Below, in pieces: positions 1 to 35,235 of a DNA stretch of 35,536 nt (position 1 is the stretch's first letter; the number at the start of each line of letters is the position of its first letter). The notes under the pieces are model-generated. The model saw only the letters and a program-made list of their open reading frames with translations. It had not been told where the DNA came from and did not search any database. Both the position numbers and the translations under genes were made by a program. This stretch comes from a virus: positions 1 through 35,536 of the IMG/VR virus record IMGVR_UViG_3300046683_000386; one strand, 5' to 3'.

Positions 1-471
1 GCCACCCGCGTACCCACTAGGGATCGGAGCGCCGAAGCTTCTGTACCCAGACCACGCGCTTGCAACTTCCGGGCCAGGGGCCGCGGGCCTTTCGAAACGC
101 GTCACGATCGCCCGTACCGCTGGCAGGCCGCGCAGCCCCCGCGCCACCGCCGCCATGTGCTGCATCGCGTAGAGAACCCCCGCCGCACTGTTCGCCCATG
201 CCGCGTTCCTTCCCGGCGGCAACGCGCCGCCAACGTGGAGTTGGAACGGCCCGAAGCTCGTCCCACCATCACCAACCTCGCCGAACCGGCCGCCACCCTC
301 GACCCTGCTCACAGCGGCGACTGCGTACGGGTCAAGGCCAAGCCTGCCGCTGTACGCGGCGATCAGGTTCCACAACTGGGGTTGGATCCCAGGGTTCCGC
401 AGGCCGACGCGGCTACCGCCATTCCTGGTTCCACCGCCGCCAGGCGTTCCCGATGTTCCACGAGGAGGCAT
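1..471 (-). CDS. Virion-associated lysozyme / lytic transglycosylase-like protein (partial, C-terminus off window)
   Basis: The ATG at 471-469 opens a frame of 157 codons that reaches base 1 without a stop, so the protein is cut by the window edge. A Gly-rich head (residues 1-20) leads into a lysozyme-like fold: LGLDPYAVAAVSRVEGGG at about 45-61, with Glu58 the likely catalytic acid, then GDGGTSFGPFQLH (67-79), the conserved core of phage goose-type or transglycosylase-like muramidases, and a helix with VTRFERPA near 123-130. It would cut peptidoglycan while DNA enters the cell. It lies 28 nt downstream of the giant internal virion protein, as murein hydrolases often do in short-tailed phages. 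It could instead be an endolysin, but no holin is visible and the neighbours favour a virion part. The fold is recognised by motif only. Confidence 0.75.
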   Translation of the reverse strand, partial: MPPRGTSGTPGGGGTRNGGSRVGLRNPGIQPQLWNLIAAYSGRLGLDPYAVAAVSRVEGGGRFGEVGDGGTSFGPFQLHVGGALPPGRNAAWANSAAGVLYAMQHMAAVARGLRGLPAVRAIVTRFERPAAPGPEVASAWSGYRSFGAPIPSGYAGG

Positions 472-499
472 CGCTAGATCATCCCTTGTTCGTCGGTCA

Positions 500-3400
500 T
501 CATCCACCCCAGCCTGAGTACGCGCCGCTCGTCGCCTGCGTCGGCGAGTGGTACGCGGGTGGTGCTGCTGGTGCCTGCGTCGAGACGCCCTTGCCCTGCT
601 CGCTGAGGCCACGCGTCCGCAGGTTCTCCAGGTCGCCGTAGCGAAGCGGGACACCCCAATACTGTTCGATCGCGAGCATGTCCGCGTTACTGAGCCCGGG
701 GATCGAGCTACTCCCACCCGGCATGATGTAGACCTTCGACTTGTACGGCGGGATCAACCCGGGGATACCACCGTGCTCCTGGATCGCGCGGTACTGCGGC
801 GTCTCGAACAGTGAGCCGAGGCCGCGGAACGGTGCGGGTAGGCCAGCGCCCGGCCCGGCGTACGTGCCGCCGAAGAACGGGTCGCGGTTCGTCAACGCGA
901 CGTACGCGAACTGTGCGGCCGGGCCGAGCAGTGCCAGGCCGAGGTCGCTCGGCTGTGCGTTCGGATCCCCCGCCAACGAGCGGGCCGTGTTGATGATGTC
1001 GAGTGGCGTCGCGAGCGGGTTGATGCCCTGCGGCTGGATGATCGGCTGGACACCACCCCGCGGCTTACCCGCCGGGATCGCCTCCGACGCGAAGCCGGGC
1101 AGTGGCACACCCACCTGGTAGTCCTGGTTCTGCGCCGTCATGAACGCGCTACCCATCACGCCGAGCACCCAGAGCCGCTCCGGGTGGCGCGTCACCCACT
1201 TCGCGGTGATACCCATGATCGTCTTGAACCAGGGGTAGAAGGGCGCGATGGTGACGATCCACTCGCGCTCCATACTGCCGAGCTGCGAGTAGTTGCCGAG
1301 CGCGTCGAGGACGCCATGCCGAACAGTGTCGAAGTCGGCCTCGCTCATCGTCTTCATCGCCTGCTGAAGATCCTCGACTGTTCGTACCATCTTCCCCGTC
1401 ACCTGCGAGATCTCCGCGACCGCCGCCCCGGCACGAGCCGCGTTCTCCGCGTGGATGTTGAAGCGGTAGTTCGCCTCCGCGAATCCGCGTAAGAGCCTGA
1501 CTGGCGCGAAGTCCGTCGAGTACGGCGCGAGCAGGCGAACAGTCCGCTTCGCGATCGAGCGGTTCCACTGGTCGGAGAGCGCACCGACGTGCTGCAACTG
1601 GCGGTTGAACTGCTCGCCCAGCGAGCCCGCGAACAGTTCCGCGAGGCGCGGGTCGCTCTGCATGAGCTGGCGCATGTTGACGAGGCCGATGCCGTCACTG
1701 TTGTGGAGGATCTGCCGCTTGATCAGGTCAGCCGCCTTCGCCACGCCGTACGTGTCGACCATGCTGTTGAAGAACGCGGTGCCGCCACCCTTCGTGAACA
1801 GGTAGCGGAACGCGAGTAGCGACTCGTTCGTCATCGAGTTCCACGCCGACCACGCGGGCTTGATGCCGAGCAGGAAGAACCGCCAGATCTGGTTCAAACC
1901 GTTCCGCAGGAACACTCGTCGCAGCACACTCGTCGGCCGCGTGTCCCGCTGCCAGATCCGCGCCACGTCACCGCTGATCCTGCGGATCCCCGCCTGTTCC
2001 ATCCGCGCCGCCCACGCCCCATCAGTCTCACCCTTCTGGATCCGCATCGAGTCCTGAAGATCCTTCGTCACGTAGTCGTACTGGGCACGGTCGATCGCGT
2101 CCTTCTCCTGGTTCGTCAGGTCACCGAAGTAGGCGGCACCGATCTTCACGTCCTTCGGGAACGCGGCACTCGGCCGTGTCCGCACGTAGAACTCGTCAGG
2201 ACGCTTCCCCCCGTCAAGCGCTAGCTGTGGGTCGAGCTTCCCGCTCATCGGCAGCACGAAGTTCTCGTAGATGTCCTGCGTCGCGAACCAGCGCGCCTGG
2301 TCGAGGTGATCCATGTGGAACAACTCCGGGTTGTTCGCGATCTGGCCGCGCATCCACAGCGTGTACTTGTTCGTCTTCCACTGGTCAGCCATGCCCTGCT
2401 GGACGAGTACCGCCCGCGCCCGCGTGTAGATCCGAGCACCCTCGATGTTCGTCGTCGACGCGCGATGCGGAGCGCGGAAGCTCGGCCCGTACTGCGCGAG
2501 CGGCCCATACGCAGGCTCTGGCGGCGGCCCCGCGACGACCGGCGGCGGCTGCTCTGGCGGTGGCTCCGCGGCGATGGGCGGCTCGACCGGCGGCGTCTCA
2601 GCGGGCGGCTGCTTGACTGTTAGCGGCGGCAGCTCACCCGCCGCCTGCGCCCGCGCGTACGTCATCGCCGGGCCTTGCTCGATCGAGAGCATGAACGGAT
2701 CCTCAGCCTTCACCGCGGGCCCAGCCGCCTCCCGCGCCGCGTTCATCGACTCGTGCCGCTCATACGCGACGCTCCGCTCGATGCTGCGCTTCGCCTCAGC
2801 CAACTTCGCGTACTCGCCGATCACATGGTCGCTGGTATGCGCGATGTAGCGGCCAGCCTCGCCGTGACTGATCGCGTAGTCAGTCCCCGCGACGTGGTAG
2901 CTGCCATCCGGGTTCCGCGTGAAGTCGAGCTTCTGCTCAGACTTCGCGATCGCCTCGTACGCCGTGCTCACCTGATCGTTGATCGCACGAACCGCCGCCC
3001 GGTTCTCGCTCCGCCCACTCGACTTCGCCTCGCGGCGAAGCTGCTTCAACTCCTCCATCGTCAGCTTCACCGTGACCGTGCCCGTGCCCCGCTTCGCCTG
3101 CGGGTTCCGCGCCGTCTCCTCGCCGATCGCGCCCTTACCCTCCCGACGCAGCCTGCTCGTCAACTCGTCGTAGAACAGGATCGGCATCCGCACCCGGAAC
3201 GTGACCGGCCCCTCATGCGGCACAGCCTCGGGCAGAGCCTCCGCCGCCGATGGTTCGGCCCGCCTCGCCGCGATGTCGCGGTTGATCCGCGCCTTCATGT
3301 CGACCAGCTTGCCGTGACCGATCTTCTGACGACCGCGGTACGCGTCGAACCCGGCTACGCGCTCACCCTCACCCGCGATCTGGCCGAATACCATCTTCTG

Positions 3401-5611
3401 GCCGACGATTTTGTTCCGCTGAGTGCGCGGCTCGATGTGGTACTCGGGGTGATCAGGAACTGTGTAATGGCCGGTCTTCTTATCGCGGACGAACAGAGCC
3501 TCAGCAGGCGCGGCAGGTGTCTCGCCCCACGTCTGGAACTTCGCGACATGCTCCGGCGCGACTGTTCGCGGCCCTGAAGAAGACGGCGGCGTAGGCTCGG
3601 GCGGCGGCGGCGTAGGCTCGGGCGGCGGCTCGTTCCGCCGAGCGTAGGCTTCGAGCGCCTGCCGTTCCTCCTCCGCCAACTGTTCGTAGCCCTTCCCGCC
3701 ACGCAGCCCAGCCGAGATCGTGACGCGCTCCGTCCGCGTCATGTGATGCTGACGACCCTTCCCACTCGCCGTCATCGGCGGCCTCCGCTCCTGCCACCGA
3801 TCCCGCGCATCCTTCGCGATCTTCAACTGCTTGTCGTACTGGTCGAGCATCGTCTGGTGCCGCAGGATCGCCCGGCCCACCGGCCCAGTCATCTCAGCCC
3901 GCTTCGGGTACACGTCCTTCGCGTACTGCGAGAACGTCCGCGGCTTCTTCCCGAGCCGCTTCAACCGCGCGTTGTGCTCCTTGAACAGGTCTTCGAGGGT
4001 ACGACCCTGCGTGCCATGGACGAGTGAGGTGAGCGACTCGCGGAGCTTCTTCTTCGTCTTCGACAGTTCATGCTCCGCCGCCTTCATCTCCCGCAGCGCC
4101 GCGCCCTGCGCCTCGATCTTCACCCTGTCAGGAACAGTCACACCACCAGTGACGTGCTTCTCCTTGAACGCGCCGCCCGACAACACCTTCCGCGTACCGA
4201 AGCGGCGCTGCTCGACCTGCTCCCGCGTCAACTGGCCGCGCTTGATCGCCTCGTCAGTGATCTGCTCGCCACGCTTACGGATCGCGTCGACCGCCGCCTG
4301 GAGCTTCGGGTTCTCCGCGTAGATCGCGGCCTTATCCAGCGACCGTAGCTGCGCGACCTGCGACTGAAGCGCCTTGATGACTGTTCGATCAGTCCCCTTC
4401 GGCGGTTTTTCACCCGCCTTCAACGCGTCCTGGAGTAACTGTTCGTGACCCTGGATCCGCGCCTCGCGATCCTGGATCAACTGCTCGATCGGATCCTGGA
4501 TGTCACGCGGCCCCTCAGCGATCACCATCGCGATCGCGCGCACCTGGTTGTCCGGCAACCCCTTGTACGTGTCGCGGACAGCCTGCTCGATGCGCTGATC
4601 GTTCATGAAGATCCGGTTACCAAGCTCGGCGCGGGCCCGTGCGATCGCCGACGCCGGGCCGAACGGGACGTTGATGTTGTGGCCGAACATTCCAAGCTCG
4701 CCACGCAGCCCACCAACAGTCGTCCCCTCCGGGCCGATCTTCCCGAACCGCTGCTCGTCGAGCATGTGCTGGAGGTACCGGCCGAAGCTCGTCGCCGCCT
4801 CGTGGTGCAACTGGAACGTGAAGCCCTCCGAGCCCGGGTAGTCGCGGATCGTGATGATGCGCGGCGCGAGCACACGCGCACGGAAGCCGGGCTTGTCGAG
4901 GCCCATGATCTGCCGGTCAAGCTCGCCGCTCTGCGCGGCCCGCTCAATCGCCCGCATGTGCAGGACACCGGGTAGCTTCCCAGCGACAGTCAAGTCGAGC
5001 AGCGTCCCCAGCGGGTCATGCTCGATGTTCGACAGGACGTGGCTCGTCCAATACTTCTGCTCGTAGTGCTTCCCGAGCGGCACGACGAGGCCACCACCGA
5101 TCGTCCGCGGGTCGTGCCAATACTGGCTGGAAAGCAGGCCACCGAAGCCACGCTCCGCGGCGGGGACGCTCTTGTCGGGGACGACCTTGATGCGGCTCTT
5201 GCCGATCCCAAGCTCGCTCAGTACCTCGTGGAGGTTCCCGCTCGGCGACCAGCCCGGAGCGCCCGTCGTCTTGTAGCCGAGGTGAAGGTCATGCCCGATC
5301 AGGTGGCCGAGGGCGTACGGCGCGGCGTAGAAGCTGTGCGCCAACTGTTCGAGGCCCATCCCACCCGGCTCCGAAGACGACCACAGATTCTGGTTGATCG
5401 TCTGGATCACGTTGCCGGGGCCGGTGATGATCTGGTGGCCGGGGATCTGATCGACGAAGTGGCCGACCTCGCCCCAGAAGCCCATGCCCTTACTGGTCGG
5501 CGCGGTTGGCGCGGGTAGCGCGCCGTAGTGCGGCGTCGTCGTCGTCGTCCCGCCGCCACCCCAGTTCCCGAACGCGCCCCCGGACGAGCCCCAGTTCGAG
5601 TAGCTCGCCAT
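500..5611 (-). CDS. Giant internal virion protein (DNA-ejection protein candidate)
   Basis: This is a 1703-residue protein whose ATG directly follows the stop of the upstream gene (TAGATG). I recognise no enzyme motif. The N-terminus is rich in Gly, Ser and Thr; residues about 380-640 are charged and look helical or coiled coil; two Pro/Glu linkers (about 655-675 and 1000-1037) separate three large blocks; residues about 1200-1500 contain hydrophobic and aromatic stretches such as WRFFLLGIKPAW, which could contact membrane; the tail is Pro/Gly-rich. Size, last-but-one place in the tail cluster and a lysozyme-like gene next door match the large core proteins of short-tailed phages (T7 gp16 type) that leave the capsid and form a trans-envelope channel. 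That function is inferred from size and context, not from homology I can verify. Confidence 0.6.
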   Translation of the reverse strand: MASYSNWGSSGGAFGNWGGGGTTTTTPHYGALPAPTAPTSKGMGFWGEVGHFVDQIPGHQIITGPGNVIQTINQNLWSSSEPGGMGLEQLAHSFYAAPYALGHLIGHDLHLGYKTTGAPGWSPSGNLHEVLSELGIGKSRIKVVPDKSVPAAERGFGGLLSSQYWHDPRTIGGGLVVPLGKHYEQKYWTSHVLSNIEHDPLGTLLDLTVAGKLPGVLHMRAIERAAQSGELDRQIMGLDKPGFRARVLAPRIITIRDYPGSEGFTFQLHHEAATSFGRYLQHMLDEQRFGKIGPEGTTVGGLRGELGMFGHNINVPFGPASAIARARAELGNRIFMNDQRIEQAVRDTYKGLPDNQVRAIAMVIAEGPRDIQDPIEQLIQDREARIQGHEQLLQDALKAGEKPPKGTDRTVIKALQSQVAQLRSLDKAAIYAENPKLQAAVDAIRKRGEQITDEAIKRGQLTREQVEQRRFGTRKVLSGGAFKEKHVTGGVTVPDRVKIEAQGAALREMKAAEHELSKTKKKLRESLTSLVHGTQGRTLEDLFKEHNARLKRLGKKPRTFSQYAKDVYPKRAEMTGPVGRAILRHQTMLDQYDKQLKIAKDARDRWQERRPPMTASGKGRQHHMTRTERVTISAGLRGGKGYEQLAEEERQALEAYARRNEPPPEPTPPPPEPTPPSSSGPRTVAPEHVAKFQTWGETPAAPAEALFVRDKKTGHYTVPDHPEYHIEPRTQRNKIVGQKMVFGQIAGEGERVAGFDAYRGRQKIGHGKLVDMKARINRDIAARRAEPSAAEALPEAVPHEGPVTFRVRMPILFYDELTSRLRREGKGAIGEETARNPQAKRGTGTVTVKLTMEELKQLRREAKSSGRSENRAAVRAINDQVSTAYEAIAKSEQKLDFTRNPDGSYHVAGTDYAISHGEAGRYIAHTSDHVIGEYAKLAEAKRSIERSVAYERHESMNAAREAAGPAVKAEDPFMLSIEQGPAMTYARAQAAGELPPLTVKQPPAETPPVEPPIAAEPPPEQPPPVVAGPPPEPAYGPLAQYGPSFRAPHRASTTNIEGARIYTRARAVLVQQGMADQWKTNKYTLWMRGQIANNPELFHMDHLDQARWFATQDIYENFVLPMSGKLDPQLALDGGKRPDEFYVRTRPSAAFPKDVKIGAAYFGDLTNQEKDAIDRAQYDYVTKDLQDSMRIQKGETDGAWAARMEQAGIRRISGDVARIWQRDTRPTSVLRRVFLRNGLNQIWRFFLLGIKPAWSAWNSMTNESLLAFRYLFTKGGGTAFFNSMVDTYGVAKAADLIKRQILHNSDGIGLVNMRQLMQSDPRLAELFAGSLGEQFNRQLQHVGALSDQWNRSIAKRTVRLLAPYSTDFAPVRLLRGFAEANYRFNIHAENAARAGAAVAEISQVTGKMVRTVEDLQQAMKTMSEADFDTVRHGVLDALGNYSQLGSMEREWIVTIAPFYPWFKTIMGITAKWVTRHPERLWVLGVMGSAFMTAQNQDYQVGVPLPGFASEAIPAGKPRGGVQPIIQPQGINPLATPLDIINTARSLAGDPNAQPSDLGLALLGPAAQFAYVALTNRDPFFGGTYAGPGAGLPAPFRGLGSLFETPQYRAIQEHGGIPGLIPPYKSKVYIMPGGSSSIPGLSNADMLAIEQYWGVPLRYGDLENLRTRGLSEQGKGVSTQAPAAPPAYHSPTQATSGAYSGWGG

Positions 5612-7839: not shown

Positions 7840-8708
7840 TACAAGACCACCACCTGAATCGTCGGCCCCGCCACAGTCTCAGAACTCACGAACGTGTGTT
7901 TGAGGACGCTCACGCCGCCGCTCACGTTCGTCGTGGCGGCCGCCTGGATACGGAATGACCGCGGCCCCGCCGCGGGCACGGTGTAGTAGACGAAGCCGAT
8001 GCACTCCGTCTGCACGCCCGCGTCGCACTCGACCGACTGACTCGTCCACACCGTCGTGTTCGAGGCTGTCAAGTCAACTAGCCGGTACTGCGCGTTCGGG
8101 CTGCCACCACCACCGCTGGTCTGGAAGCGCAGCGACATCGCGATGCCGAGCGTCTGCTGGCCCGTCGTCGTCACCGTCGTCAGGTCGATGATGTTCGACC
8201 AGTTCGTCGCGCTGATACTCGCATGGTCAGCGCCGAGCGTCGCCGAGAAGATGTTCGTCTTCGCCGCGAGCATATGGTCGGTGATCGTGTTATCCGCGAG
8301 CGGGTCGTGGCCGCCATCCTTGTGCTGCGCCGCGTGGATGACAAGCTCCGCCGCCGTCGGCGTGAACGAGCCGAACGTCCCCGAACCCGTCGCGTCGGTG
8401 CAGTAGCGAAGCTCATTCGTCGCCGTGTTCCAGTAGACGCGGCCCTTGAAGTTCCCCGTCGTCGGATCCGAAGCGAGGTTCTCGAAGCCCTGGTTGATGT
8501 GAAGGTGGTCGCTGCGGGCGATCGTCGCGGCGACGCCCTCACTGTTCGCCGAGCCGGGCTGCGTCACCGCGCTCGCCGTCGACACATTCGTGTTCGCCTC
8601 CAACCCACCGTTCGCGACCTGCGTGATCGCCTGAAGGTCGGCCATCACCTGCGACGCGTCAAGCGGGTCATCGTTCACGATGTTGAAAGGCAGGTTGATC
8701 GCGCCCAA
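7839..8708 (-). CDS. Fibre-like virion protein
   Basis: The protein has 289 residues. The start is a TTG at 8708, supported by AGGAG six bases upstream and by the preceding gene ending at 8718; no ATG or GTG fits better. The N-terminal part (about 50-110) has the fibre-type element DHLHINQGFENLASDP followed by GRVYWNTATNELRY, a beta-structured unit common in phage fibres and baseplate appendages. The C-terminal half (about 140-289) looks like a beta-sandwich with alternating hydrophobic residues and contains Cys residues in VECDAGVQTECIGF. It sits directly after the nozzle gene, so it is probably a fibre or tip protein at the tail end. Receptor binding is a guess. Confidence 0.55.
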   Translation of the reverse strand: MGAINLPFNIVNDDPLDASQVMADLQAITQVANGGLEANTNVSTASAVTQPGSANSEGVAATIARSDHLHINQGFENLASDPTTGNFKGRVYWNTATNELRYCTDATGSGTFGSFTPTAAELVIHAAQHKDGGHDPLADNTITDHMLAAKTNIFSATLGADHASISATNWSNIIDLTTVTTTGQQTLGIAMSLRFQTSGGGGSPNAQYRLVDLTASNTTVWTSQSVECDAGVQTECIGFVYYTVPAAGPRSFRIQAAATTNVSGGVSVLKHTFVSSETVAGPTIQVVVL

Positions 8709-8717: not shown

Positions 8718-10628
8718 CTAATCCGCGTCGATCGGTGTCAGCTTCAAGATGACGCTGTAGACGGCTGCGCCGCCGATAGCCGTGCCAGCGTAACCGAGCA
8801 CTCGGTCGGTAATGGCAGCGTCCTGCGACGACTCGGTGATCGTGAACGCGAGGTAGCGGCCCCGCGTCGTGAAGTAGCCCGCCTTCCGTTTCGCTCCACC
8901 ACCACCACCCCACACGCCGACGCCCCACTTGTCACTCAGCGACCAGACCCGCGTCGTCGTTCGCATGTCGAACGGCAGCGTCTCACCGACGCCCGTCGCC
9001 AGGTCGGCGCTCACGCTGAGGCTCACGTTCCCATACCCGTACAGCTCGGCTCGACGTAGCCGCTTCGGCGTCGTCATCCCGAACAGTTGCGCGCCGGTAC
9101 GCGCCGTCGCGGTGATCGCGACTGGGGTGCCGTTCCCATCCGTGTCCGCGGCCCCGTCGAACAGTCGCCGCACGAACGCGCCGTCGTTCGGGCTGCTATC
9201 CGCGAAGTAGCAGACCTGGCCGAGGCTCGTATCGACGACGACGGCACTCGCGATTGGCAGGTCGTGGGCCATCCACTGATGCTGCCCGCCGCGGCGTCGG
9301 ATCCAGCCGATGCGGAACAGGTCGGCGTACGCTTCGAGGACGCGCGTGTTCGCGCCCTCACCGACGGGCGTGAACGAGAGGTAGTAACGGCCGTTCAAGC
9401 CGAACGCGCAGAACTGGCTGCTGAGGTTCCACGCGAACGTCTGGAGTAGCGGCTGGACGCGCGTCGACTCCTGGCTGACGGCGTGACCATCCGTGCTGAG
9501 GAAGCCTGACTCGCTGAGGAACCAGAGGTTCCCCTCGATCGTCGGCGCGATCATGTTCGGGCCGGGCACGCCCGCCGCCGCGTCGACGAGTAGGTTCGCG
9601 CCGCCCGTGATGATGCCAGCGACGTTGTCCGCGTCGTCGTAGATGCGGTGCAACGCGTTCTGGGTGAAGACGAGGACGCCATCCGCGCCCGCCGCGCCGA
9701 GGCCGACGTTCGGGCCGACCACGATCGCGGTGATGGGACTGTCCGTGGGGAAGTCGACGTAGTTGTTCTTGTTGATGAAGCTCGCCGGAGCGTTGATCAC
9801 CGACCAGAACACGCGTCGAGGCGTCCCTGCGACGCCACTCACGAACAGTCGGTTCCTCCAGACGGTAAGGAGCGTGCCCTCCGGTACCTTCGCCGCGCCG
9901 GTCGTCGTATGCGTGACATGGCTGGCCGGGGCCGTGCCCCCGCCGAGCGCGTCCGTGCTCGTCATCAAAGTGATTGGGCGGGCGGCTAGCGCTCCGACGA
10001 AGGTGCATACGACCCCCGTGCCCGGCAGCGCGCCGCCCGTGCAGAGCACATTCCCAGGGCCGATCGGAGTCAACCCTTGAAGCGCGGTCTGTACGTCCGA
10101 CGCGGCAGCGTTGTAGGCCAGGTCAACGGTGTCCGCGCCGCCGTAGTGGAGCTTGAACGTGCCGCTCGACGGTGTGCCCGTGATCGTCACCGTCTGCACG
10201 TCGTTCACGTCCGCCGCGGGCAACGCCGTCAGCGTCGTCCCATCCCACGACCGCATCGCGTTCGCGCCGTCGCAGTAGTAGAGCGTGTCGAGGTACTGGA
10301 CACCCCCGACCGGCGTCGTCGTTGAGAGGCCCGAGTCGATCGACGCCCACGAGGATCCATCCACCGTCGCGTAGACATGCCCGTCAGCGCAGTGCGCGAC
10401 GATCCAGATCGTCCCGCCGCTGAGGTTGAGGGCGAGGAGCTTCAGGATATTCGCGGGCGCGGCGACGCTCCAGCCGCTGAAGCCGCGCCGTTTCAGGAGC
10501 GCGCCGGTACGGTCGATCTGCCAGTTCAACGTGTCGGCGAGGTCACCCGGCTCTAGCTCCGTGACGCTGGAACGCAGGTCGAGGCCGTTCGAGCCGATGG
10601 GGAGTTCAACCAGTCGGTCGGCGGGCAT
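8718..10628 (-). CDS. Tail nozzle / tail tubular protein B-like
   Basis: This is a 636-residue, beta-rich protein that overlaps the upstream adaptor gene by 23 bases. The N-terminus (GLDLRSSVTELEPGDLADTL) and later elements such as WRNRLFVSGVAGTPRRVFWS (257-276) match the pattern of beta-propeller nozzle proteins of short-tailed phages (T7 gp12-like, P22 gp10-like), which cap the tail below the adaptor ring. Residues about 144-245 contain the unit SSGTFKLHYGG...AYNAAASDVQTAL...GPGNV, a small beta-domain often repeated in actinophage tail proteins; here it interrupts the propeller between two blades. Neighbours (adaptors upstream, fibre downstream) support the tail assignment. Family assignment is by pattern, not by search. 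Confidence 0.65.
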   Translation of the reverse strand: MPADRLVELPIGSNGLDLRSSVTELEPGDLADTLNWQIDRTGALLKRRGFSGWSVAAPANILKLLALNLSGGTIWIVAHCADGHVYATVDGSSWASIDSGLSTTTPVGGVQYLDTLYYCDGANAMRSWDGTTLTALPAADVNDVQTVTITGTPSSGTFKLHYGGADTVDLAYNAAASDVQTALQGLTPIGPGNVLCTGGALPGTGVVCTFVGALAARPITLMTSTDALGGGTAPASHVTHTTTGAAKVPEGTLLTVWRNRLFVSGVAGTPRRVFWSVINAPASFINKNNYVDFPTDSPITAIVVGPNVGLGAAGADGVLVFTQNALHRIYDDADNVAGIITGGANLLVDAAAGVPGPNMIAPTIEGNLWFLSESGFLSTDGHAVSQESTRVQPLLQTFAWNLSSQFCAFGLNGRYYLSFTPVGEGANTRVLEAYADLFRIGWIRRRGGQHQWMAHDLPIASAVVVDTSLGQVCYFADSSPNDGAFVRRLFDGAADTDGNGTPVAITATARTGAQLFGMTTPKRLRRAELYGYGNVSLSVSADLATGVGETLPFDMRTTTRVWSLSDKWGVGVWGGGGGAKRKAGYFTTRGRYLAFTITESSQDAAITDRVLGYAGTAIGGAAVYSVILKLTPIDAD

Positions 10629-11292
10629 TGCCGAGCACCCTCCTACGGTCGCTGACGTGCGTCATCTGGCTCGGCGCGACGCTACTCCCAACCGTGTTCG
10701 CGGTGCGGCGTAGCTCGATCACACGCTTGTCGTAGATCCCGCGATCCGTCGTCGCGTTCTGGATCCGCTCCGCGCCGCCGCTCATCATCTGGACGCGCCA
10801 CCGCGCGTAGTGGACGAGCAGGTCGGCGAACTCGATGGGGTAGCGCGAGTCGAGCCCATCCCCGAACGTCGTGAACAGTGTCGGCGACGCCGAGTAGAGG
10901 ATCTGCACCATCGTCGTGTCATCCTCGATCGGCGCGGGGATCACGCCGATCGTCATCGCGCCCGGCTTCCCGAACAGGTAGTAGCCGCTCAACAAGCCAT
11001 CCGAGATCCAGGGTAGGAGGCTCTCACTGAGCGGCATCGGCTGGAGCTGCGACCCGCCCGCGACGACGAGCAATAACTGGTCGAAGTCACTCGGCAGGCT
11101 GTACTCGGACTGGTGGGCGACGAGGCTCAGGGTCATGAACGACTGAAGGCACTGCGACTGTTCGCAGACATCCTGGTACGCGTCGTTGAAGATCGAGAGG
11201 ATGTCCTCGTCAGACCAGAGCGCGTCGTCGACGTAGTTCGCGCGCAGCCGATCCTTCAAGTGCAGGAGGATCGGCTGGGGCGTGAGGCTCAC
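10606..11292 (-). CDS. Head-tail adaptor / tail tubular protein A-like (second of two)
   Basis: A GTG at 11292 overlaps the upstream stop as GTGA and gives 228 residues; a longer open frame reaches further upstream, but that extra part is Arg-rich shadow of the preceding gene. The fold signature is that of podoviral adaptor proteins: helical start (LRANYVDDALWSDEDILSIFNDAY), a strand region ending SEYSLPSDFDQLLLV, then IGVIPAP, ILYSASPTLF and a helical end with IEFADLLVHYARWRVQMMSG and a YDKRVIELRR tail. Such proteins form the ring between portal and nozzle (T7 gp11 analogue). The next gene is the nozzle. It resembles the neighbouring 190-residue protein in layout. Confidence 0.6.
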   Translation of the reverse strand: MSLTPQPILLHLKDRLRANYVDDALWSDEDILSIFNDAYQDVCEQSQCLQSFMTLSLVAHQSEYSLPSDFDQLLLVVAGGSQLQPMPLSESLLPWISDGLLSGYYLFGKPGAMTIGVIPAPIEDDTTMVQILYSASPTLFTTFGDGLDSRYPIEFADLLVHYARWRVQMMSGGAERIQNATTDRGIYDKRVIELRRTANTVGSSVAPSQMTHVSDRRRVLGNARRPTG

Positions 11293-11861
11293 CCGCCCGC
11301 CCTCCGCCGCCCGGCGAGGCGTAGCACGCCACCGCCGCCCCACGCCGCGTCGTTGCGGTGCTTCAACCGCTGCGCGTCCTTCTGGTAGTTCACGAGTTCG
11401 CCCTGGCCTAGCTCGGGCTGCCCGTCGTCGAACAGGATGTACGCGCTCGTGAGCCGCTCGACGAGCCGTTTCGCGCCGCCGGTCAGTTCCAGCGCCGACG
11501 TGTCCGTCAACGGCTCCGGCCGGTACGAGTAGTAGAGCGTCAGCGGCATGTCCGCGCCACTCGTCGGCCACACGTAGAGCGTCCGGGCGACGACGACGAA
11601 GAAGTTGTTCAGCGGCGTGTCCGAGATCGTGATCGGCGAGCCCGTCACGATCCGCATGTACTCGACCGTCGGCAGCAAGGTCAACGCGTTCGTCCCGTTG
11701 AAGACGCCTTCGACCGAGATCACCTCGGCTGGGAGGGTGACGCCGGACTGTCCAGCGAGAACAGTCACTGTTGCTCGTTTCTCCAAGAGCATCGTGTCCG
11801 CGGCGACGCGCTGGTTCGCCGCGTTCACGTAGTCAAGCTCGCTCTGCGCGCTCAGGCTCAT
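11289..11861 (-). CDS. Head-tail adaptor-like protein (first of two)
   Basis: The protein has 190 residues from ATG 11861 (ATGA overlap with the glycosidase stop). It shows the same layout as the following gene: a helical start, TVLAGQSGVTLPAEVISVEGV, then LYVWPTSGADMPLTLYYSYRPEPLTD and a helical tail RLVERLTSAYILFDDG...YQKDAQRLKHR. The pattern of a strand with VxP, a YxxxP turn, and a C-terminal pair of helices is common in phage adaptor and gatekeeper proteins. It could form one of two stacked rings under the portal or be a tail completion protein. The Arg/Gly-rich last 15 residues are probably disordered. Confidence 0.5.
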   Translation of the reverse strand: MSLSAQSELDYVNAANQRVAADTMLLEKRATVTVLAGQSGVTLPAEVISVEGVFNGTNALTLLPTVEYMRIVTGSPITISDTPLNNFFVVVARTLYVWPTSGADMPLTLYYSYRPEPLTDTSALELTGGAKRLVERLTSAYILFDDGQPELGQGELVNYQKDAQRLKHRNDAAWGGGGVLRLAGRRRAGG

Positions 11862-13901: not shown

Positions 13902-14444
13902 TTATTGTGGGCCCATCGGTGCCGTCAATGGCACCCTGGGTGACTGTTCAGTCGCGCGCAGGCCATCCCGTACCTCGGGACTCGTCTGCCGCTTCACGGC
14001 CGTCTCATCCTCCCAGAAGGCCGTGCCGTTCTCCTCATGCGTTTCCAGGAACTCGATCTCCCCCGGATCCTCCGTCTCGTAGACGCCGTAGTTGAAGTCG
14101 ATCGGCTTGCCGAGCTGGACTGCGACCGGCACGGCTACGCCGCCGTGCATCTCGTGACCAGTCCCGACGCGCATCAACGTCAACTCCGTCATCCGACTCG
14201 AATACCGCTTGAAACCCTCCCGTAGCGGCGGCGGGCCGACTACGACCTGCGGCTCCGGCTCCGGCTCGGCGAGCTTCTGGAGGATCTCGACCTGCGCGGC
14301 GAGCTTCTGGATCATCTCCTCCTGCGCGAGTACGAGATCCTGCGTCACACCGAGATCCTGGATAAGAGCGGCTGTCTCGACGTTCCCGAGATCCGCGGTC
14401 GGCGTTGCGACCGTTCCGGCTTCGGCGTCTTTTCGTGCGGGCAC
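13902..14444 (-). CDS. Putative capsid-associated protein with N-terminal coiled coil
   Basis: The start is set at GTG 14444, which has GAAGGAGA upstream; a longer frame would begin inside the inverted repeat behind the capsid gene. The 180-residue product has a helical, probably coiled-coil segment (about residues 20-62, VLAQEEMIQKLAAQVEILQK), a Pro/Glu hinge and a beta region with VPVAVQLGKPIDFNYGVYET followed by DPGEIEFLETHEENG. The last pattern, a strand leading into an acidic helix, recurs in small proteins coded next to phage major capsid genes. A role in head decoration or head completion is inferred from the position. Confidence 0.5.
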   Translation of the reverse strand: MPARKDAEAGTVATPTADLGNVETAALIQDLGVTQDLVLAQEEMIQKLAAQVEILQKLAEPEPEPQVVVGPPPLREGFKRYSSRMTELTLMRVGTGHEMHGGVAVPVAVQLGKPIDFNYGVYETEDPGEIEFLETHEENGTAFWEDETAVKRQTSPEVRDGLRATEQSPRVPLTAPMGPQ

Positions 14445-16821: not shown

Positions 16822-16834
16822 GACTGTTCGTAGC

Positions 16835-22040: not shown

Positions 22041-25000
22041 TAGACGACCATCCAGTTGGTACCATCGGCGACCACGGTGACATTGGCATACTGAGAGGAG
22101 AGGACGTTCGTGGTCGCGCCGTCGATCGTCGCCGAACTGGCCCGCGCCACGGTGACTGTGTTGCCGGACGAGTCGGTCTTCTTGACGGTGACCTTGAAGC
22201 CGGTACAGCTCGCCGCGGGCAGGGTGATCGTCCGCGCCGCACCCGACGCTGAGACACCGAACGTCGTGTCGTGATCCTGGTGGGTGAGCGTCGTGTCTGC
22301 CGACAACGCTTTGTATGGAGCACGGCCGATGCGGGGAGGCGTGTTCAGGAGGCCTGCTACGTGTGTTCCTCCTGATGGTATGAGCTGGTTAGCCTGGATC
22401 ACTACGTCGTCGACGGTGCCGCTGGCGACGTTGAGTAGCGTCGGCGTGGACGGGGTGTTCGGGAAGTGCAGGCCGCTGATGTAAACGCCGCTCGTAGTGC
22501 CATTCGTCTCGACTAGCGCCTGCCCGGACGGTAGGTAGATCCAGAAGTTTCGGATCGCGAAGGCGTCGCCGTTGTAGGTGAACATGGCCTGGTTGATGTT
22601 GTCGGCCGTGGTGTAGTCGCTGGCGAAGCAGTCGTTGAAGCTGACGTTACCGCCGGGTACGCCGACGTCCTGGATCAGGATCGGAGGGCCGAAGGTGTTA
22701 CTGGCACCCGGCTCGAACACGCAGGTGTTGAACGACCAGTTCTTTAGGATGTTCGAGATGATCGGGTAGGTGCTGTTCTGGTTGTACTGGAACCGGCAGT
22801 TGTAGAAGGACACCTCATCAGAGATCTCGGATGCGGTGAAGCCGGTCGCGTCGGTGACACCACGGACAGCTAGCCGCCCGCCTTGGAACATGCACTTGGT
22901 GGCGGTGAAATCGACGACCGTCGAGAGGTTCAGCAGCGGCGCGGTGGTGTCGCCCTGACGGGCACGGATCGTGCAGCGTTCTATGCCACAATGCCGCGTC
23001 ACCTTATGCGGACTGGTGGTGTAGTCGCCGTGGAAGTCGAGTACGGTGCCGGTGTAGCTGGCGTGGCTGGCTTGGAAGTCGATGTCGCGAACGATGACGG
23101 CCTGCGCCTTTATGGCTTCGAGTACCGTCCCCGTACTAGCCGTGTACTGGAAAAGAGTGACACCAGCCCCAAGGTTTATGTTCTGGATGTTCATGTTGCC
23201 CAGGCCGCCCGATCCGGTCAGGGTGATGCCGATGTACGTCTCGTCGGGTATCGACATCGTGGTCGTGACTGGGAACGTGCCCGGCCCGAACCGCCACTCC
23301 TGCCTTGATGCGATGTGGGCGTTGAACAGTGCGCCGAGGTCGGTGCCGCTGCCGACACTCGTGCCAGATCCGTCATAGAGGGTGATGGTCGTTCCGTCGG
23401 TGCGCGCCATATATGTCCATGGGGCTAACCCGCTTCCACCACCAGTTCCTGTGACGAGCTTATTCCAGTTCGTTCCGTCGGAGATCAGGTTGACGGCGGC
23501 GTACTGGGAGGAAAGGACGCTCGTGGTCGAGCCGTCGATCGTCGCCGAACCGGCGCGTGTTACGGTAACCGCGTTTACAGACGAGTCGGTCTTCTTGACC
23601 GTGAGTTTCAGTCCGACGCAGCCAACGGTGGGGAGCGTGATCGTGATCGCACCACTGGTAGCGTTGACTCCGAAGACGCGGTCGTGGTCGGATTGGCGCA
23701 GCGTCGTTGCGGCGCTGAGCGCCTGGTAGGGGATCTGGCCTGTCCTGGGCGGCTCGGTGACGGTGCCGTTGACGAGTGGGTTCGTCGTCGGGTAGGAGCC
23801 GAGGTTTTCGATGGTGAGATCGCCGATGCTGTTGGCGGAGCAGTTGACGAGTCCGCTGGTGGACGCGTTGGGGCTGAGGATGTTCATGCCGCTGATGTGA
23901 ACGCCGTGGGTGGTGCCGTTCGTCTTCACCAGGGAATAGCCGTCCTGGCAGTCCCACTGGCCGCCGATGATGCGTAGCCCGTTGCCGTGGAAGTTGATGA
24001 ACGCGGCTGCGCTGGCGGGCGTGCCTGACTGGTCACCGAGCCAGCAGTCCTCGTAGGTGTGGCCCGAGGCGGGTTCGATCTGCGTCTCGTGGACGTAGAT
24101 CGGGCCGGATGCGCTTGGTTCGAAGTGGCAGGCGCGGAACGTCCACGAGTAGCCGGATCCGTACCAGACCGGCCAGCCCGCGGTCGTCACGTTCGGAGCC
24201 TTGTTGCGGCTAAACCGGCAGCCGTCGAGGATGACGACATTCGCGAAGTCGTCCGTCGAGTTGGTGTGGTGGCTGCGGATGTTCATGGTGCCGCCGCTGA
24301 AGAGGCAGTCGCGGAACGCGATGTTGACGGTCTTGTTCACGTCCATGGTGGGCCCGCCGGTGTCGAGCTTGCCGCTGGAGACGGGGCCGAAGTAGCAGTT
24401 ACGGAAGGCGGCGTGGCGGGTCGGTGTCGAGTGGTCGACGCCTTCGATCGTCATGAACGCGAGGCCGTCCTTGGTGCCGTCGCCGACGACGTATGAGCTG
24501 CTCGACCATTGGAAGCCGATGCTGTCGACGGTGAGGCCTTGCGTGCCGACTGCGCTGAAGGCTTGTCCTGAGACTGGCGTCCACTTGAACTGGGTGGTGG
24601 ACGCGCCGCCGACGGCTGACTTCTTCTCGTCCTGACGCCCGCCCTGGCCGCGCAGTGTCACGCCGATGAACAGGTCGAGGGTCATCTTGGTCGACCAGGG
24701 GAAGACACCTGGGCCGAATACGAGGCTGGTGCGGTCGGTGGCGAGGCTGTTCACGAGCGCGCCCAGGTCGGTGCCCGTGGCTGCCGTCGCGCCGGTGCTG
24801 GTGTAGGCGGTGATGGTCGTGCCGTTCGTCTTTACGGTATAGGTTTCCGCGGCGGGTGCCGTCGTGCCACCGCCACCGCCACCACCGCCGCCAGCCGCGT
24901 CTGCGTATGCAGTCGTCGCGAGTTTCGTCGAGTTATCGTTGGAAGCCTGCGTAACGCCGGTGGTGCCGGTAGGAAGGCTGGGCGTGCCCGTGAACGTGGG

Positions 25001-27473: not shown

Positions 27474-27476
27474 CGC

Positions 27477-28233: not shown

Positions 28234-29961
28234 TCAGTACCCGGCGGTCAGCGACGTCGGTACCCACGGCTCCGACTCGACTGTTCGCCGCTGCCGGTAC
28301 GAGCCCGGCTCATGCAGCCACAGGTAGACGAGTCCACTCGCCGCCATGACGCGATCGTCCTTGCAGCCCTGCTGGGCTTGGGGTTTGCCGTTGCGGATCA
28401 CGAAGGTACGGCACTCCTCTAGGAGCTGCGAGTCGTTGCAGACGATGTCATCGTCGCGGAGCGCCTGCTCTAAACAGTCGAGCATCTCAGCCCTGGTCTT
28501 CTGCGTCGTCTCCCAGCCGTAGATCATCTGACGCTTCCGATCCTTCCGATCCCCGGATGGGCGTTTCCGGTAGATCATCGGGTAGTTGTCCTTCCGCAGG
28601 CTCGTGATCACGCTCGCGCCCCAGCCGCCGGTCACCTCGACGGCGATGAGGGCGCGGTTGTAGAGGTATCCGAGGCGGCAGAGGTTGTCGGCGAACAGGT
28701 CACGGTCGACGAGGCCATGCCACGCGGCGACGATCTCCATCTTGTCTCGCGGCATCACGTACGCGGCCTGGAAGTCGCCCTTGTCACCCGTCCCCGCCGC
28801 GCAGTCGCTGAAGATCAGGTAGTCCATCCCCTCCTGTGGTTCCTCCCAGATACGCAGGTTCCCGTACTTCGTCGGCTCGAACGTGGCGACGAGCTGCGAT
28901 CCGACTGTTCGCGCGACGAGGTCGCCGGTGTGGCGGGGCTTGCCTAGTTCGGTGTGCTCGCGGTGCCGCTCGACTGATTCGAGGTCGAAGTAGGGGCGGC
29001 CCGACGTGAGGAACGCTTCGCGGGGTGTCGCCGGGTACTCCTGGTTGAACTGGTCGATCCGGCCGCGGCACTCGTTCGCGATGCAGAGGCGTCGCCACTG
29101 CAACTGGTCGTCGCTGAGCGCCCACGGGGCCCATGTGCTGCGCTGGGCGAGTTCGGCGACCTCAGCCTCCTCCGACGTCCGCTCGAAGTCGACGGGTGCC
29201 TTAGACGCGTAGGTGGGTTCCTCCCACCACGGCGCGAAGAACGCGGCGTAGTCGGACTCCTCGGACTCCGCGGCGAGCCACATCTCGTGGAAGTTGTTAC
29301 CAACGCCCTGCGCCGTACTCTCGATGATGACGGCGGTGCCCTGCTCTAATGGCACTGTCTGGAGCGCGGTTGTCAGCGCTTCTGAGCCCTTGTCGCTGCA
29401 CCACGGCTGGCGGGCGACCTCTGATAGGTGCAGGTAGAGGATGCCGAAGCCCGCACCAGCGTTCTCCAGCGAGGTTGTTCGCATCGACGATTCGAGGCCC
29501 GGCTCCTTGTCGCGGAGGTGCTCCTGCTTCGTCGGGTTCTGGAACTCCAGGATCGATCCGCGCGTCGAGCTGTCCTTCATCGGCCTGCACCAGCGTGGCA
29601 TGTGCCGGAAGTAGCGCTCGGTGATGCCATGCAGGTAGCCGGTCGTCGTCTGGTCATGCGCGATCGTCAGGCTGTGCTGGTAGTGGCGGGTCGTGCAGCG
29701 CCAGAAGAAGAAGGCTTGGACGATCGTGCTCATCCCATGCCGCCTGGCTTTGAGGATGATGATGCGGATCGGCGTGCCCGCGATCAGGTCTTCGATCAGG
29801 ATCTTCGCGAGGCGACGCTGCGCTGGTTTGAAGACGAGTGGGATCGGGCGGAGCGTGTTCTTATCCGGGACTTTCAGGCACGTCCGGCAGAAGAACTCGA
29901 AGTCGTTCGTGAGCCGGTCGAGGACTTCGTCGGCCGACGTGGGCGCTGCCTGAACAGTCAC
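28234..29961 (-). CDS. terL: Terminase large subunit
   Basis: A GTG at 29961 overlaps the small-subunit stop (GTGA); 575 residues. The ATPase half shows a Walker A-type LKARRHGMST (70-79, Lys71), a Walker B-type strand ILYLHLSE with Glu181, and the coupling motif ESTA (214-217). The nuclease half shows acidic residues of the RNase H-like fold: Asp386 in YLIFSDCAAGTGDKGDF, Glu442 in AVEVTGGWG and Asp535/Asp536 in GCKDDRVMAA. It translocates DNA into the head through the portal and cuts it. Translation is coupled to the small subunit. Large subunits with this Walker A spelling occur in many short-tailed phages of actinobacteria. Confidence 0.9.
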   Translation of the reverse strand: MTVQAAPTSADEVLDRLTNDFEFFCRTCLKVPDKNTLRPIPLVFKPAQRRLAKILIEDLIAGTPIRIIILKARRHGMSTIVQAFFFWRCTTRHYQHSLTIAHDQTTTGYLHGITERYFRHMPRWCRPMKDSSTRGSILEFQNPTKQEHLRDKEPGLESSMRTTSLENAGAGFGILYLHLSEVARQPWCSDKGSEALTTALQTVPLEQGTAVIIESTAQGVGNNFHEMWLAAESEESDYAAFFAPWWEEPTYASKAPVDFERTSEEAEVAELAQRSTWAPWALSDDQLQWRRLCIANECRGRIDQFNQEYPATPREAFLTSGRPYFDLESVERHREHTELGKPRHTGDLVARTVGSQLVATFEPTKYGNLRIWEEPQEGMDYLIFSDCAAGTGDKGDFQAAYVMPRDKMEIVAAWHGLVDRDLFADNLCRLGYLYNRALIAVEVTGGWGASVITSLRKDNYPMIYRKRPSGDRKDRKRQMIYGWETTQKTRAEMLDCLEQALRDDDIVCNDSQLLEECRTFVIRNGKPQAQQGCKDDRVMAASGLVYLWLHEPGSYRQRRTVESEPWVPTSLTAGY

Positions 29962-30431
29962 GACACGCTGCGGAGCTTCTCCGGCTCAGAGGGCTCCTGT
30001 GTTTGGAGTAGCGCCTTCTTGACCTGCGCCTCCCACGTCTCTGAGAGGTCACCAGCCGCCGCGTCACGCTTCCGCCAGCGATCCGAGAAGCGTCGCTCCA
30101 GGGTGGTGAGGAAACCCGACCAGGCGGCCTTACCCTGCTCGGCCTGGTCACGCGCCATGTTCAGTAGCTCCATCTCGGCGAACGCTTCTGCCTCGTTGAT
30201 CCGCTCGAACAGTTCCCGGTAGATGAAGTTCTTGTCCTCCGGCTCGCCGTCGCTATCGCGGAGGTGCGCGTCCTCGCCGAGCTTCATCCACGACTCCCAC
30301 AGCTTCCGGTGAACGCCGAGGCGCTGCGCGACGACGTGCGGGAAGTGCGCGCGTTTCACCTCCCGCTCGATGACGGTGAGGATCTCCGGGGTCAACTCGG
30401 CGCGGCGGCTCATCGGGTGGGATGATGGCAC
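29958..30431 (-). CDS. terS: Terminase small subunit
   Basis: The product has 157 residues from GTG 30431, or 151 from ATG 30413; neither start has a clear ribosome site and I cannot choose. Residues about 10-60 look like a helix-turn-helix DNA-binding domain (PEILTVIEREVKRAHFPHV, AQRLGVHRKLWESWM), followed by a long charged helical part (YRELFERINEAEAFAEMELL) that would form the oligomer. It lies directly upstream of the large subunit with a 4-base overlap. It would recognise the packaging site, perhaps in the hairpin-rich DNA just in front (30439-30514). Confidence 0.75.
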   Translation of the reverse strand: MPSSHPMSRRAELTPEILTVIEREVKRAHFPHVVAQRLGVHRKLWESWMKLGEDAHLRDSDGEPEDKNFIYRELFERINEAEAFAEMELLNMARDQAEQGKAAWSGFLTTLERRFSDRWRKRDAAAGDLSETWEAQVKKALLQTQEPSEPEKLRSVS

Positions 30432-32383: not shown

Positions 32384-32384
32384 A
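32347..32384 (-). promoter_or_regulatory. Putative leaderless or near-leaderless promoter of the small-gene operon
   Basis: On the minus strand TTGTCT (32384-32379) is followed after 17 bases by TAGTGT (32361-32356), and eight bases later by the ATG of the regulator. TAGTGT fits the actinobacterial TANNNT -10. The transcript would start within one or two bases of the ATG, and no ribosome site is seen, which agrees with a leaderless mRNA. Confidence 0.5.
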
Positions 32385-32610
32385 AGCTGGAACCCAAACA
32401 CAGCGCCAACGGAACCTTCACGACAATGGGCCGCGTTGCGCTAGCCGCGGGGGGGTGGAGGGGCGGCTTGGGCTTCGGGTCGGGGTTTGGCTCTGCGATT
32501 GGGGTTTGGGCCTGACTGTTCATGTTCGTGTGCTCGTGGCCGCTCGTGCCCTGCCAGCGTGATAATGCGGGGTGTTGCCCCTGTATCGCATGGTTGAGCC
32601 AATGTGGCAC
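32377..32610 (-). CDS. Doubtful Pro-rich ORF (77 aa)
   Basis: The GTG at 32610 lies five bases after TATTAT (32621-32616), which could be a leaderless -10, and the frame stops inside the operator at 32377. The product is Pro-rich (PIAEPNPDPKPKPPLHPP) with no fold I recognise, and its C-rich coding strand is largely the complement of the G-run region. It may be a small gene or chance. Confidence 0.25.
   Translation of the reverse strand: MPHWLNHAIQGQHPALSRWQGTSGHEHTNMNSQAQTPIAEPNPDPKPKPPLHPPAASATRPIVVKVPLALCLGSSFV
32449..32510 (+). other. G-quadruplex-type run of G tracts
   Basis: Seven tracts of three or more G occur within 62 bases (32449-32455, 32460-32463, 32470-32472, 32477-32479, 32482-32485, 32501-32504, 32508-32510), separated by loops of 2-15 bases. 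The tracts are on the plus strand, which is the template strand for the leftward operon. Confidence 0.6.
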
Positions 32611-32975
32611 GCACGATAATAGGTGTTATGTCAAGTGACCCCGGACCCACGATTCGTCGGGCCGACCTGTAAAGCCGCTCCCAGAGCCAAACGTGGTGGC
32701 GTGGGCCGGTGGTGCCGGTGCTTCGGGGGCTGCTGGTCGTGGTGGTGGGCCTGGTCGTGGTCGTGCTGGCAGCTGCTCCTCGACCTGGTCGTGACTGTTC
32801 CGCTGGCAGCTCCAGCTCGGCCGCCTGGTCGCCGGTGGCCTGGAGCTGGTCGGTTGCCGGGGGTGCAGCTCGTCGGCCTGGTCGCCGGGCGTTGGCGCGT
32901 AGCTGCTCCTGGACGCGTGACGGCCGCGGCTCCGTGGTGGCTGGCCGCGGCCGTGGGCCGATCGGGTGGTGTGGG
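32611..32975. other. Gene-poor stretch with imperfect direct repeats
   Basis: No credible gene is seen over 365 bases. The minus frames have almost no ATG or GTG before the last 50 bases, and the plus frames are Val/Ala/Arg/Trp-rich with poor codon use. CTGGTCG, mostly as CCTGGTCG, recurs at 32733, 32750, 32783, 32824, 32846 and 32877, within imperfect units of about 30-45 bases that also carry GCAGCT or AGCTC. It may be a replication or regulatory region, or the remains of a coding repeat like the Asp-Gln linker of the VWA gene. Confidence 0.45.
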
Positions 32976-33257: not shown

Positions 33258-33273
33258 GGTTGGTCTCCTGCCG

Positions 33274-35235
33274 TTAGAGCGTGATGTGTGCGGCTCTCAT
33301 TGCGTGTTCGATCGTGGTGGTGAGTGCGTGGGCGACGTCGTTTGGGTTGCCTACGCTTGGCATCTCTAGGACTGCTCCCGCGTTGATGCCGCGTTGGCTG
33401 CCTTTCCAGTCGCAGCCGATGGCGGCCCAGACGACGGCGACGCCGCGGCGTTCTAGGTGGCGGATGATCGGTGCTGCTGCCATCCCCTGTGCGCGGCCGA
33501 ACCCGCCGTCTGAGGCGATGATCAGGACGCGTGCGCCACGGTAGGGGCTGGTTAGGTGGAGGCGGTCGTCTAGCCGCTTGAACCCTGCGCTGAAGTTCTC
33601 CCACCCATGCGTCGCGTGGCTGGTCTGGATGCGCTTCCGGTCGTGCTCGATCAAGCGTGCCGTCGTGCCGAACGCGACCAGCGCCGTGCGCGCGTTGATC
33701 GCGCGGCCGGCCTCGCCCAAGGCCCATGCGAGGCGGGCTACGTGTGGCTGCGCCTCCCGCATGCTCCCGGAACAGTCCGTCATCAGTCCGATGATCGGTG
33801 GTGGCGTCGTCGTGACCTGCTTACGCGTGTGGCGGAACAGGTCGGCGCGCACGACCTGGCCGCTCTGCCGCTGCGCCTCACGTGTCACCGCGCCGCGGCC
33901 GATCATCCGGCCCGGGGGCAGCTGCTGGCGGTGCCGCGTCCGTGCCACCTCGGGCAATGCCAACTGTTGGAAGTGCCGGGCGATCTCCGCGGCCAGCTTC
34001 CGATCCGCCGCTTCGGGTGCCCGGTCGAACGTCTGGATCGCGTCGCCGGGCGCAGTCTCATCCTGGCCGTGCACGATGCGGTGGACAGTCTCCGCATCCT
34101 CACGCTGCTCGGCCTGCCCGGCCGCGTCAACCGCTTCGCGCTGCTCCTGCTCGCTCATGTCGACGGCCTCGGCGAGTAGCTCGCGGATCGTCTTGGCGGG
34201 CTGCTCCTGCTCCTGCTCCTGCTCCTGGTCGCCGGGATCGCCGGGGGGCTGGTCGCCGTCGGCCTGGTCGCCGTCGCCGGCCTGGTCGCCGTCGCCGGCC
34301 TGGTCGCCGGGTGACTGTTCGCCGGACTCACCTCCGCCGGCTTGCTGCTGCTCGCCGTCGCCGGGCTCGGGCTGCTCGCCCGGCTCGGGCTCGGGTGCCG
34401 TGCTGGCCGCTGCTAGCTCGGCCTTCCACTCGGCCATCAGCTTCGCCATACCCTCCCGATCCGGCACGTCCCTGTCCTGCGTCTGGTTGTACCGCCCGGC
34501 TAGCTCGTCCAGAGCCTCGACCCAGGCACGGCCGTGCTTCGCCGCGTACGCGTCCCTGAACGGCTTCACAAGCGATCCTGGGAGCGCGCCGCCATTCGCG
34601 ACGTCACGGCCGAGGATCAGGGTTGCGCCCATCGCATCGCGCCACGCATCCCCGCTCTCATCCACGTGCGCGTCGCGGAGGATCAACTCATGCGCGACCG
34701 CGGCCAACGCCTCATGGTCGCCGCCATCCGCGACGACACGCGCCTCCATTCGTGTCTCTTCGAGGATCGTGCCGAAGTCAAGCACGTCCGCGCCTGCCCG
34801 TGACCAGTCCTTGAACCAGCGCGTGTCGCTATGCGCCGCGTGACCGATCTCATGCTCAACCAGTCCGACCGCCCTGCGGTGCTTACGCCGCCAAGTGTCC
34901 TGCGTCCACCGAACAGTGGCCGGGTCGACGCCGGGCAAGGCCACGTCCGAATCAAGCACGACCTCCCGCGTGTCCTGATCGTAGAACGCGGGCGCGCCTG
35001 TGCCCCGCGTCGCCGCCGGGCCGACTCGAACCGACAGGTTCGCCGCTCGTCGCTTGATCTCGTCGTGCTGCTTGATCGCCCGCTGATGGCTGCCGCTCTC
35101 GCTGTTCTCGGCTTCGTACGCTCCATACGCTGCTTGGCTGATGAGCCGCTCGTTCGCGTCGCGGATCACCTGCGCCGCGACTGGCAGCCACTCGGCCGGG
35201 TTGCGCCTACCCCTGATTGTGTCCATGAGTCCCAC
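33274..35235 (-). CDS. Metallopeptidase-like plus von Willebrand A domain protein (CobT/DUF2201-like)
   Basis: A GTG at 35235 follows the AAA+ stop by three bases and has GGGGAG upstream, giving 653 residues. Residues about 1-170 end in VEHEIGHAAH (126-135) with the zinc motif HEIGH (His128, Glu129, His132) and a later LEETRMEAR whose Glu159 or Glu160 could be the third ligand. Residues about 270-345 are an acidic Gln/Asp/Gly/Pro linker. Residues about 478-640 form a von Willebrand A domain with the metal site DCSGS (Asp487, Ser489, Ser491) and IIASDGG (Asp576). VWA proteins paired with MoxR/CobS AAA+ ATPases act in chaperone- or chelatase-like assemblies; the role in phages is not known. The zincin plus VWA layout resembles DUF2201 proteins. 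Confidence 0.7.
   Translation of the reverse strand: MGLMDTIRGRRNPAEWLPVAAQVIRDANERLISQAAYGAYEAENSESGSHQRAIKQHDEIKRRAANLSVRVGPAATRGTGAPAFYDQDTREVVLDSDVALPGVDPATVRWTQDTWRRKHRRAVGLVEHEIGHAAHSDTRWFKDWSRAGADVLDFGTILEETRMEARVVADGGDHEALAAVAHELILRDAHVDESGDAWRDAMGATLILGRDVANGGALPGSLVKPFRDAYAAKHGRAWVEALDELAGRYNQTQDRDVPDREGMAKLMAEWKAELAAASTAPEPEPGEQPEPGDGEQQQAGGGESGEQSPGDQAGDGDQAGDGDQADGDQPPGDPGDQEQEQEQEQPAKTIRELLAEAVDMSEQEQREAVDAAGQAEQREDAETVHRIVHGQDETAPGDAIQTFDRAPEAADRKLAAEIARHFQQLALPEVARTRHRQQLPPGRMIGRGAVTREAQRQSGQVVRADLFRHTRKQVTTTPPPIIGLMTDCSGSMREAQPHVARLAWALGEAGRAINARTALVAFGTTARLIEHDRKRIQTSHATHGWENFSAGFKRLDDRLHLTSPYRGARVLIIASDGGFGRAQGMAAAPIIRHLERRGVAVVWAAIGCDWKGSQRGINAGAVLEMPSVGNPNDVAHALTTTIEHAMRAAHITL
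34203..34310 (-). repeat. Tandem hexanucleotide and 18-bp repeats in the VWA linker
   Basis: The unit CTCCTG repeats about four times near 34203-34227 and codes for the Glu-Gln run. An 18-bp unit repeats exactly at 34263-34280 and 34281-34298 with a partial third copy, coding for Gly-Asp-Gln-Ala. The repeats probably arose by slippage and make the linker length variable. Confidence 0.7.

Follow-up and report, generated by a model that had tools for sequence, protein, structure and literature searches.

An asymmetric 7-bp word scattered over both strands of an apparent tailed-phage fragment has the properties of a DNA-level recognition site

The window analysed here is the whole 35,536-nucleotide (35.5-kb) stretch of viral DNA, which appears to be part of a tailed-phage genome. 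Its recognised genes lie nearly all on the minus strand and encode, besides tail-fibre-like proteins, the following:

28234-29961, terminase
16835-18649, portal
14533-15741, major capsid protein
10606-11571, SU10-type adaptor

The protein encoded at 33274-35235 is similar to proteins that carry a cobalamin-biosynthesis (CobT-like) or AAA-ATPase annotation, and because all 21 of the 21 phage records matching it come from Gordonia, Microbacterium or another actinobacterium, the phage host is probably an actinobacterium; the window holds no tRNA gene that could serve as a further pointer to the host. No replication gene and no methyltransferase was recognised among the genes of the 35.5-kb fragment, and a D5_N domain search of the window gave no match, the record apparently being a fragment that lacks recognised replication genes. 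Read by eye, a small minus-strand gene at 32080-32385 looks like a ribbon-helix-helix protein, with GCGCTAGACA twice directly upstream as a likely operator.

Across the window, the word ACTGTTC occurs 37 times between positions 187 and 34917 (21 copies on the plus strand and 16 on the minus strand), and its 8-mer form ACTGTTCG 27 times (17 plus, 10 minus), exactly reproducing the counts of an earlier note on this DNA. The sites are listed by position, strand and the base that follows the word, with their gene context where it was noted:

187..193, plus, then G
661..667, plus, then G
806..812, minus, then G
1321..1327, minus, then G
1377..1383, plus, then G
1537..1543, minus, then G
1631..1637, minus, then G
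3561..3567, plus, then G
3679..3685, plus, then G
4132..4138, minus, then C
4380..4386, plus, then G
4438..4444, plus, then G
5344..5350, plus, then G
8541..8547, plus, then G
9081..9087, minus, then G
9159..9165, minus, then G
9843..9849, minus, then G
10873..10879, minus, then A
11157..11163, plus, then G
11759..11765, minus, then T
12259..12265, minus, then G
13943..13949, plus, then A
14671..14677, plus, then T; capsid gene, variable loop
14977..14983, plus, then G; capsid gene
16823..16829, plus, then G
16958..16964, plus, then G; portal protein C-terminal tail, unconserved
19239..19245, plus, then G
23324..23330, minus, then A; sole site of 19.3-28.2 kb
28280..28286, plus, then G; terminase C-terminus
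28904..28910, plus, then G; terminase, variable part
29952..29958, minus, then A; right behind the terminase start codon (GTG ACT GTT CAG)
30207..30213, minus, then G
32515..32521, plus, then A; stretch without a clear gene
32794..32800, plus, then C
33770..33776, minus, then C
34314..34320, plus, then G
34911..34917, minus, then G

The resulting density is about 1 per kb over both strands, or about 1 per 1.7-2.2 kb on each strand. The core is sharply bounded at the 7 bp ACTGTTC; G is the next base in 27 of the 37 copies, and TG is weakly favoured on the 5' side. Counts of most single-base variants of the word are close to expectation or fall short of it: GCTGTTCG and ACGGTTCG are missing from the window against 4.4 and 5.4 expected copies, and ACTGGTCG is mildly above expectation.

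To place these counts against chance, we compared them with a series of null models. Base composition predicts 2.7 copies of ACTGTTC and 0.9 of ACTGTTCG, bearing out the earlier estimates of roughly 2-3 and less than one; the expectations rise to 4.4 and 2.0 under an order-2 Markov model and to 5.8 and 2.3 under an order-3 model, and in a Markov ranking of all 6-, 7- and 8-mers in the window ACTGTT(C)(G) tops the significance list. In a codon-aware null, in which synonymous codons were permuted inside each gene (1000 shuffles), coding DNA is expected to hold 2.10 +/- 1.38 copies of ACTGTTC, against 33 observed (z 22; shuffle maximum 8), and 1.29 copies of ACTGTTCG, against 25 observed (shuffle maximum 6). 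The excess over what protein sequence and codon use together predict is thus about 16-fold, and ACTGTTC ranks first among all 7- and 8-mers in the codon-shuffle ranking, with only overlapping words coming near. The over-representation reported earlier therefore stands under both Markov and codon-aware models.

The arrangement of the sites is that of a strand-independent signal. The 21:16 strand split does not differ from even (binomial p 0.51) and orientations follow one another at random along the window (18 runs against 19.2 expected), in agreement with the previous claim of no orientation bias. Spacing is not significantly clustered (coefficient of variation 1.18 against 0.96 +/- 0.15 for random placement, p 0.07), and no orientation switch, regular spacing or array of ACTGTTC was seen across the window. 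The one departure from even coverage is the interval 19.3-28.2 kb, which holds 1 site against 9.3 expected (p 0.001, post hoc) and covers a large tail-fibre-like gene with opposite GC skew; cautiously, we read it as a module of more recent arrival. Within positions 19000-29000, GC skew turns positive across the tail-fibre-like region, where ACTGTTC is nearly absent.

Coding context points the same way. Thirty-five of the 37 sites lie within ORFs of the gene set used for phasing, with sense and antisense placements about equal, and all six codon phases are used (sense phases 0, 1 and 2 with 7, 2 and 8 sites, antisense phases with 7, 6 and 5, and 2 sites intergenic), so that the word is indeed, as had been proposed, not one repeated peptide. 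The suggestion that the codons ACT, GTT and AGT are uncommon in these genes also holds: they make up 6.7%, 9.7% and 8.0% of their codon families in the window, and are used at the sites nonetheless. Where capsid, portal and terminase could be compared within their families, most of their sites map to loops, tails or protein ends that vary. Taken together, the six phases, the presence on both strands, the codon-shuffle z of 22 and the variable protein positions indicate that ACTGTTC is selected as DNA and not as peptide, codon or mRNA. We conclude with high confidence that ACTGTTC(G) is a selected DNA-level recognition site, independent of strand and reading frame, and its reader is very probably a DNA-handling protein.

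We then considered whether the word is shared. No near DNA match to the window was found among 50,697 phages, single-protein scans found no relatives, and alignment scans recovered many distant relatives plus a closest one (L093; 52% identity in capsid, 42% in terminase and 38% in portal), none of them enriched; the word appears only twice in the 32.9 kb of L093. In a set of 194 phage contigs, each 11 kb or longer and mostly terminase or capsid relatives, the window is the extreme outlier for ACTGTTC, and the highest-ranking words of actinophage controls fall far short of ACTGTTC in the window. Likewise, ACTGTTCG is not enriched in 18 bacterial and archaeal genomes from several phyla, 397 Actinomycetota genomes or 249 Pseudomonadota genomes: its density does not exceed about 0.1 per kb in these samples, against 0.76 per kb in the window. 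Neither the wider phage family nor the sampled host groups therefore carry the word, and no mention of ACTGTTC as a discussed word was found in the literature searched. The earlier note had held that loss of the word in related phages would speak against it; the available relatives do lack it, but their capsid proteins are no more than 52% identical in amino acids to that of the window, too distant a relationship to refute a phage-specific site. Of its suggested interpretations, a DNA-level site is upheld by phases, strands, codon null and variable positions, whereas a host-wide motif finds no support in the unenriched bacterial genomes sampled.

The closest known likeness comes from phage P4, whose annotated replication repeats, the "ori type 1 repeats" (ACTGTTCACC, also given as ACTGTTCAC), have a core identical to ACTGTTC. 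The P4 alpha primase-helicase binds these origin type 1 repeats (iterons). In addition, a paired-word scan revealed several GC-rich contigs with tight GAACAGT/ACTGTTC clusters in short regions; clusters of [CT]GAACAGT[CT] adjoin D5_N helicase genes in three contigs (L212, L254 and L222) and lie inside an HTH_36 gene in a further one (L181). Because the D5 contigs were retrieved with the word itself, their association with clusters carries selection bias, whereas the P4 match is independent. A triple-word scan of genome contigs returned mostly tandem repeats.

On these grounds our preferred reading, to which we give a probability of roughly one in three, is that the dispersed sites serve the phage's own replication-type DNA-binding protein. 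The reader would be a sequence-specific component of the phage replication machinery, either an iteron-binding initiator or a helicase-primase in type. It would bind individual dispersed copies, whichever strand they lie on, and load or start there in place of a clustered origin, and its gene would lie outside the 35.5-kb fragment. The P4 core identity and the clusters beside D5_N genes in the three contigs support this reading. It is weakened by the lack of a D5-type helicase or other replication gene in the fragment, by the lack of a cluster and by the Actinomycetota D5 loci: within about 1.5 kb of the domain, no ACTGTTC cluster was found in 21 loci from 199 Actinomycetota genomes, which counts against the reading since the host is probably an actinobacterium. 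The words that do cluster at such loci differ from ACTGTTC; AGTGAAC, AGCGGAC, AGTTAAC, AGGGACC and CCTACAC form clusters near the D5 domains of L492, L493, L505, L506 and L510 (Actinomycetota) and are probably divergent iterons. The likeness to P4 also has its limits, as known iterons cluster at an origin and the word sits in one or two short regions in P4 and the D5 contigs (there beside a helicase gene), whereas the window has single copies scattered within genes, no cluster and no helicase gene seen in the fragment; moreover, the next base is mostly G in the window and A in the P4 repeats.

We place this replication reading ahead of a second, somewhat less probable one, in which the word is bound, regardless of strand, by a phage protein that organises, segregates or packages the genome, or marks DNA as "self" so that a phage nuclease or packaging machine can tell phage from host DNA. 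Even orientation, a density of about 1 per kb, placement in structural genes without intergenic concentration, and the unenriched bacterial genomes would all suit such a role. However, no candidate protein was recognised in the fragment, and an organiser would poorly tolerate the nearly empty 19.3-28.2 kb interval unless that module arrived recently.

A variant built on the P4 likeness appears improbable: the scattered copies could be decoy iterons that titrate the P4-alpha/D5-type initiator on which a competing satellite or plasmid depends, or the phage's own initiator could fire from single sites genome-wide. If true, an origin word would be spread over coding DNA instead of one array, and in the decoy case iteron incompatibility would be used as a weapon (a "sponge"); the 21 Actinomycetota D5 loci without an ACTGTTC cluster weaken the sponge idea for that phylum.

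An unlikely reading is a Chi-like word that shields phage DNA ends by halting a RecBCD/AddAB-type nuclease of the host. Like Chi sites in phages, ACTGTTC(G) is a non-palindromic word of 7-8 bp dispersed through coding DNA, and Chi is over-represented in phages without their own recombinase (PMC3784561). Chi is, however, enriched in the host chromosome, unlike the window's word in the sampled genomes, which makes a host Chi-like word improbable; the excess here is also much stronger (8-20 fold, whereas the value reported for E. coli Chi is 2.3 fold), and the composition is not G-rich.

About as doubtful is a target of phage or host modification or restriction, whether by an asymmetric Type III/IIG-like enzyme or by GAAC/GTTC phosphorothioation. 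Asymmetric words of such length are typical of Type III/IIG-like enzymes, and ACTGTTC ends in GTTC/GAAC, but restriction normally selects against sites and the fragment has no recognised methyltransferase.

Lower still we rate the programmed nicking of virion DNA that is known from T5, phiKMV-like phages and Pseudomonas phage tf. The nick words of these phages are likewise dispersed, asymmetric and 7-9 bp long, with partly similar letters: the tf word TACT/GTGAC (TACTGTGAC) has ACTGT in common with the window's word, and the scan used here, run on tf as a positive control, recovers this experimentally mapped word as the top 9-mer. The known programmed nick sites are nevertheless located on one strand (PMC3517423), as in tf (11:0), against 21:16 in random order in the window.

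The remaining candidates fare worse. Uptake sequences of Pasteurellaceae and Neisseriaceae are dense and occur on both strands and in all frames, much as ACTGTTC does, but a natural-transformation uptake word inherited from a competent host is very improbable, since none of the sampled bacterial genomes has a comparable density. Mycobacteriophage L5-type stoperators, which also comprise tens of asymmetric sites across an actinobacteriophage genome, are longer, lie mostly between genes and follow the direction of transcription; as the sites here are nearly all intragenic and unoriented, a stoperator-like repressor site is not supported. A by-product of codon or peptide bias has practically no probability, such an artefact being ruled out by the codon shuffle (maximum 8 against 33) together with the six phases.

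Most known examples of scattered strand-independent words, such as Chi and uptake sequences, come from bacterial chromosomes. A word that is specific to a phage and bends codon choice in most of its genes points to a protein-DNA interaction so far unrecognised in phages, and the codon-shuffle word scan provides a simple computational handle for finding other such words.

Two capsid-related phages indicate that phage-specific scattered words may recur in this group. One (L126) has its own two-strand word, CGGAAYA, present in 74 copies in 41 kb against 9 for a reversed control, read in all codon phases and densest at 30-40 kb; this suggests that the phenomenon seen for ACTGTTC is not unique, although the word is a different one, denser and with a smaller excess over the codon null. 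The full record of this phage (L483-L485) encodes a RecT-like protein and a Toprim/AAA_25 primase-helicase, which is not of D5 type and so counts against the replication reading. A further contig, L128, is the same phage (99.99%) and hence no test of conservation for CGGAAYA. The second, L093, has a weaker scattered word, CAAGCTC(G).

Words of other kinds were observed in the same material. Four terminase relatives (L039, L447, L453 and L454), spanning 12-18 kb, have 20-25 copies of GAGCGGG on one strand and 0 on the other. In L039 the codon phases are mixed, and the word resembles a signal for programmed nicking or polarity rather than a ribosome-binding site. CCACGGA and ACGGAGA each occur 12 times, on one strand only, within the 12.9 kb of L181, and CTCGAG-based words are mildly over-represented in the GC-rich phages L093, L150, L487 and L488.
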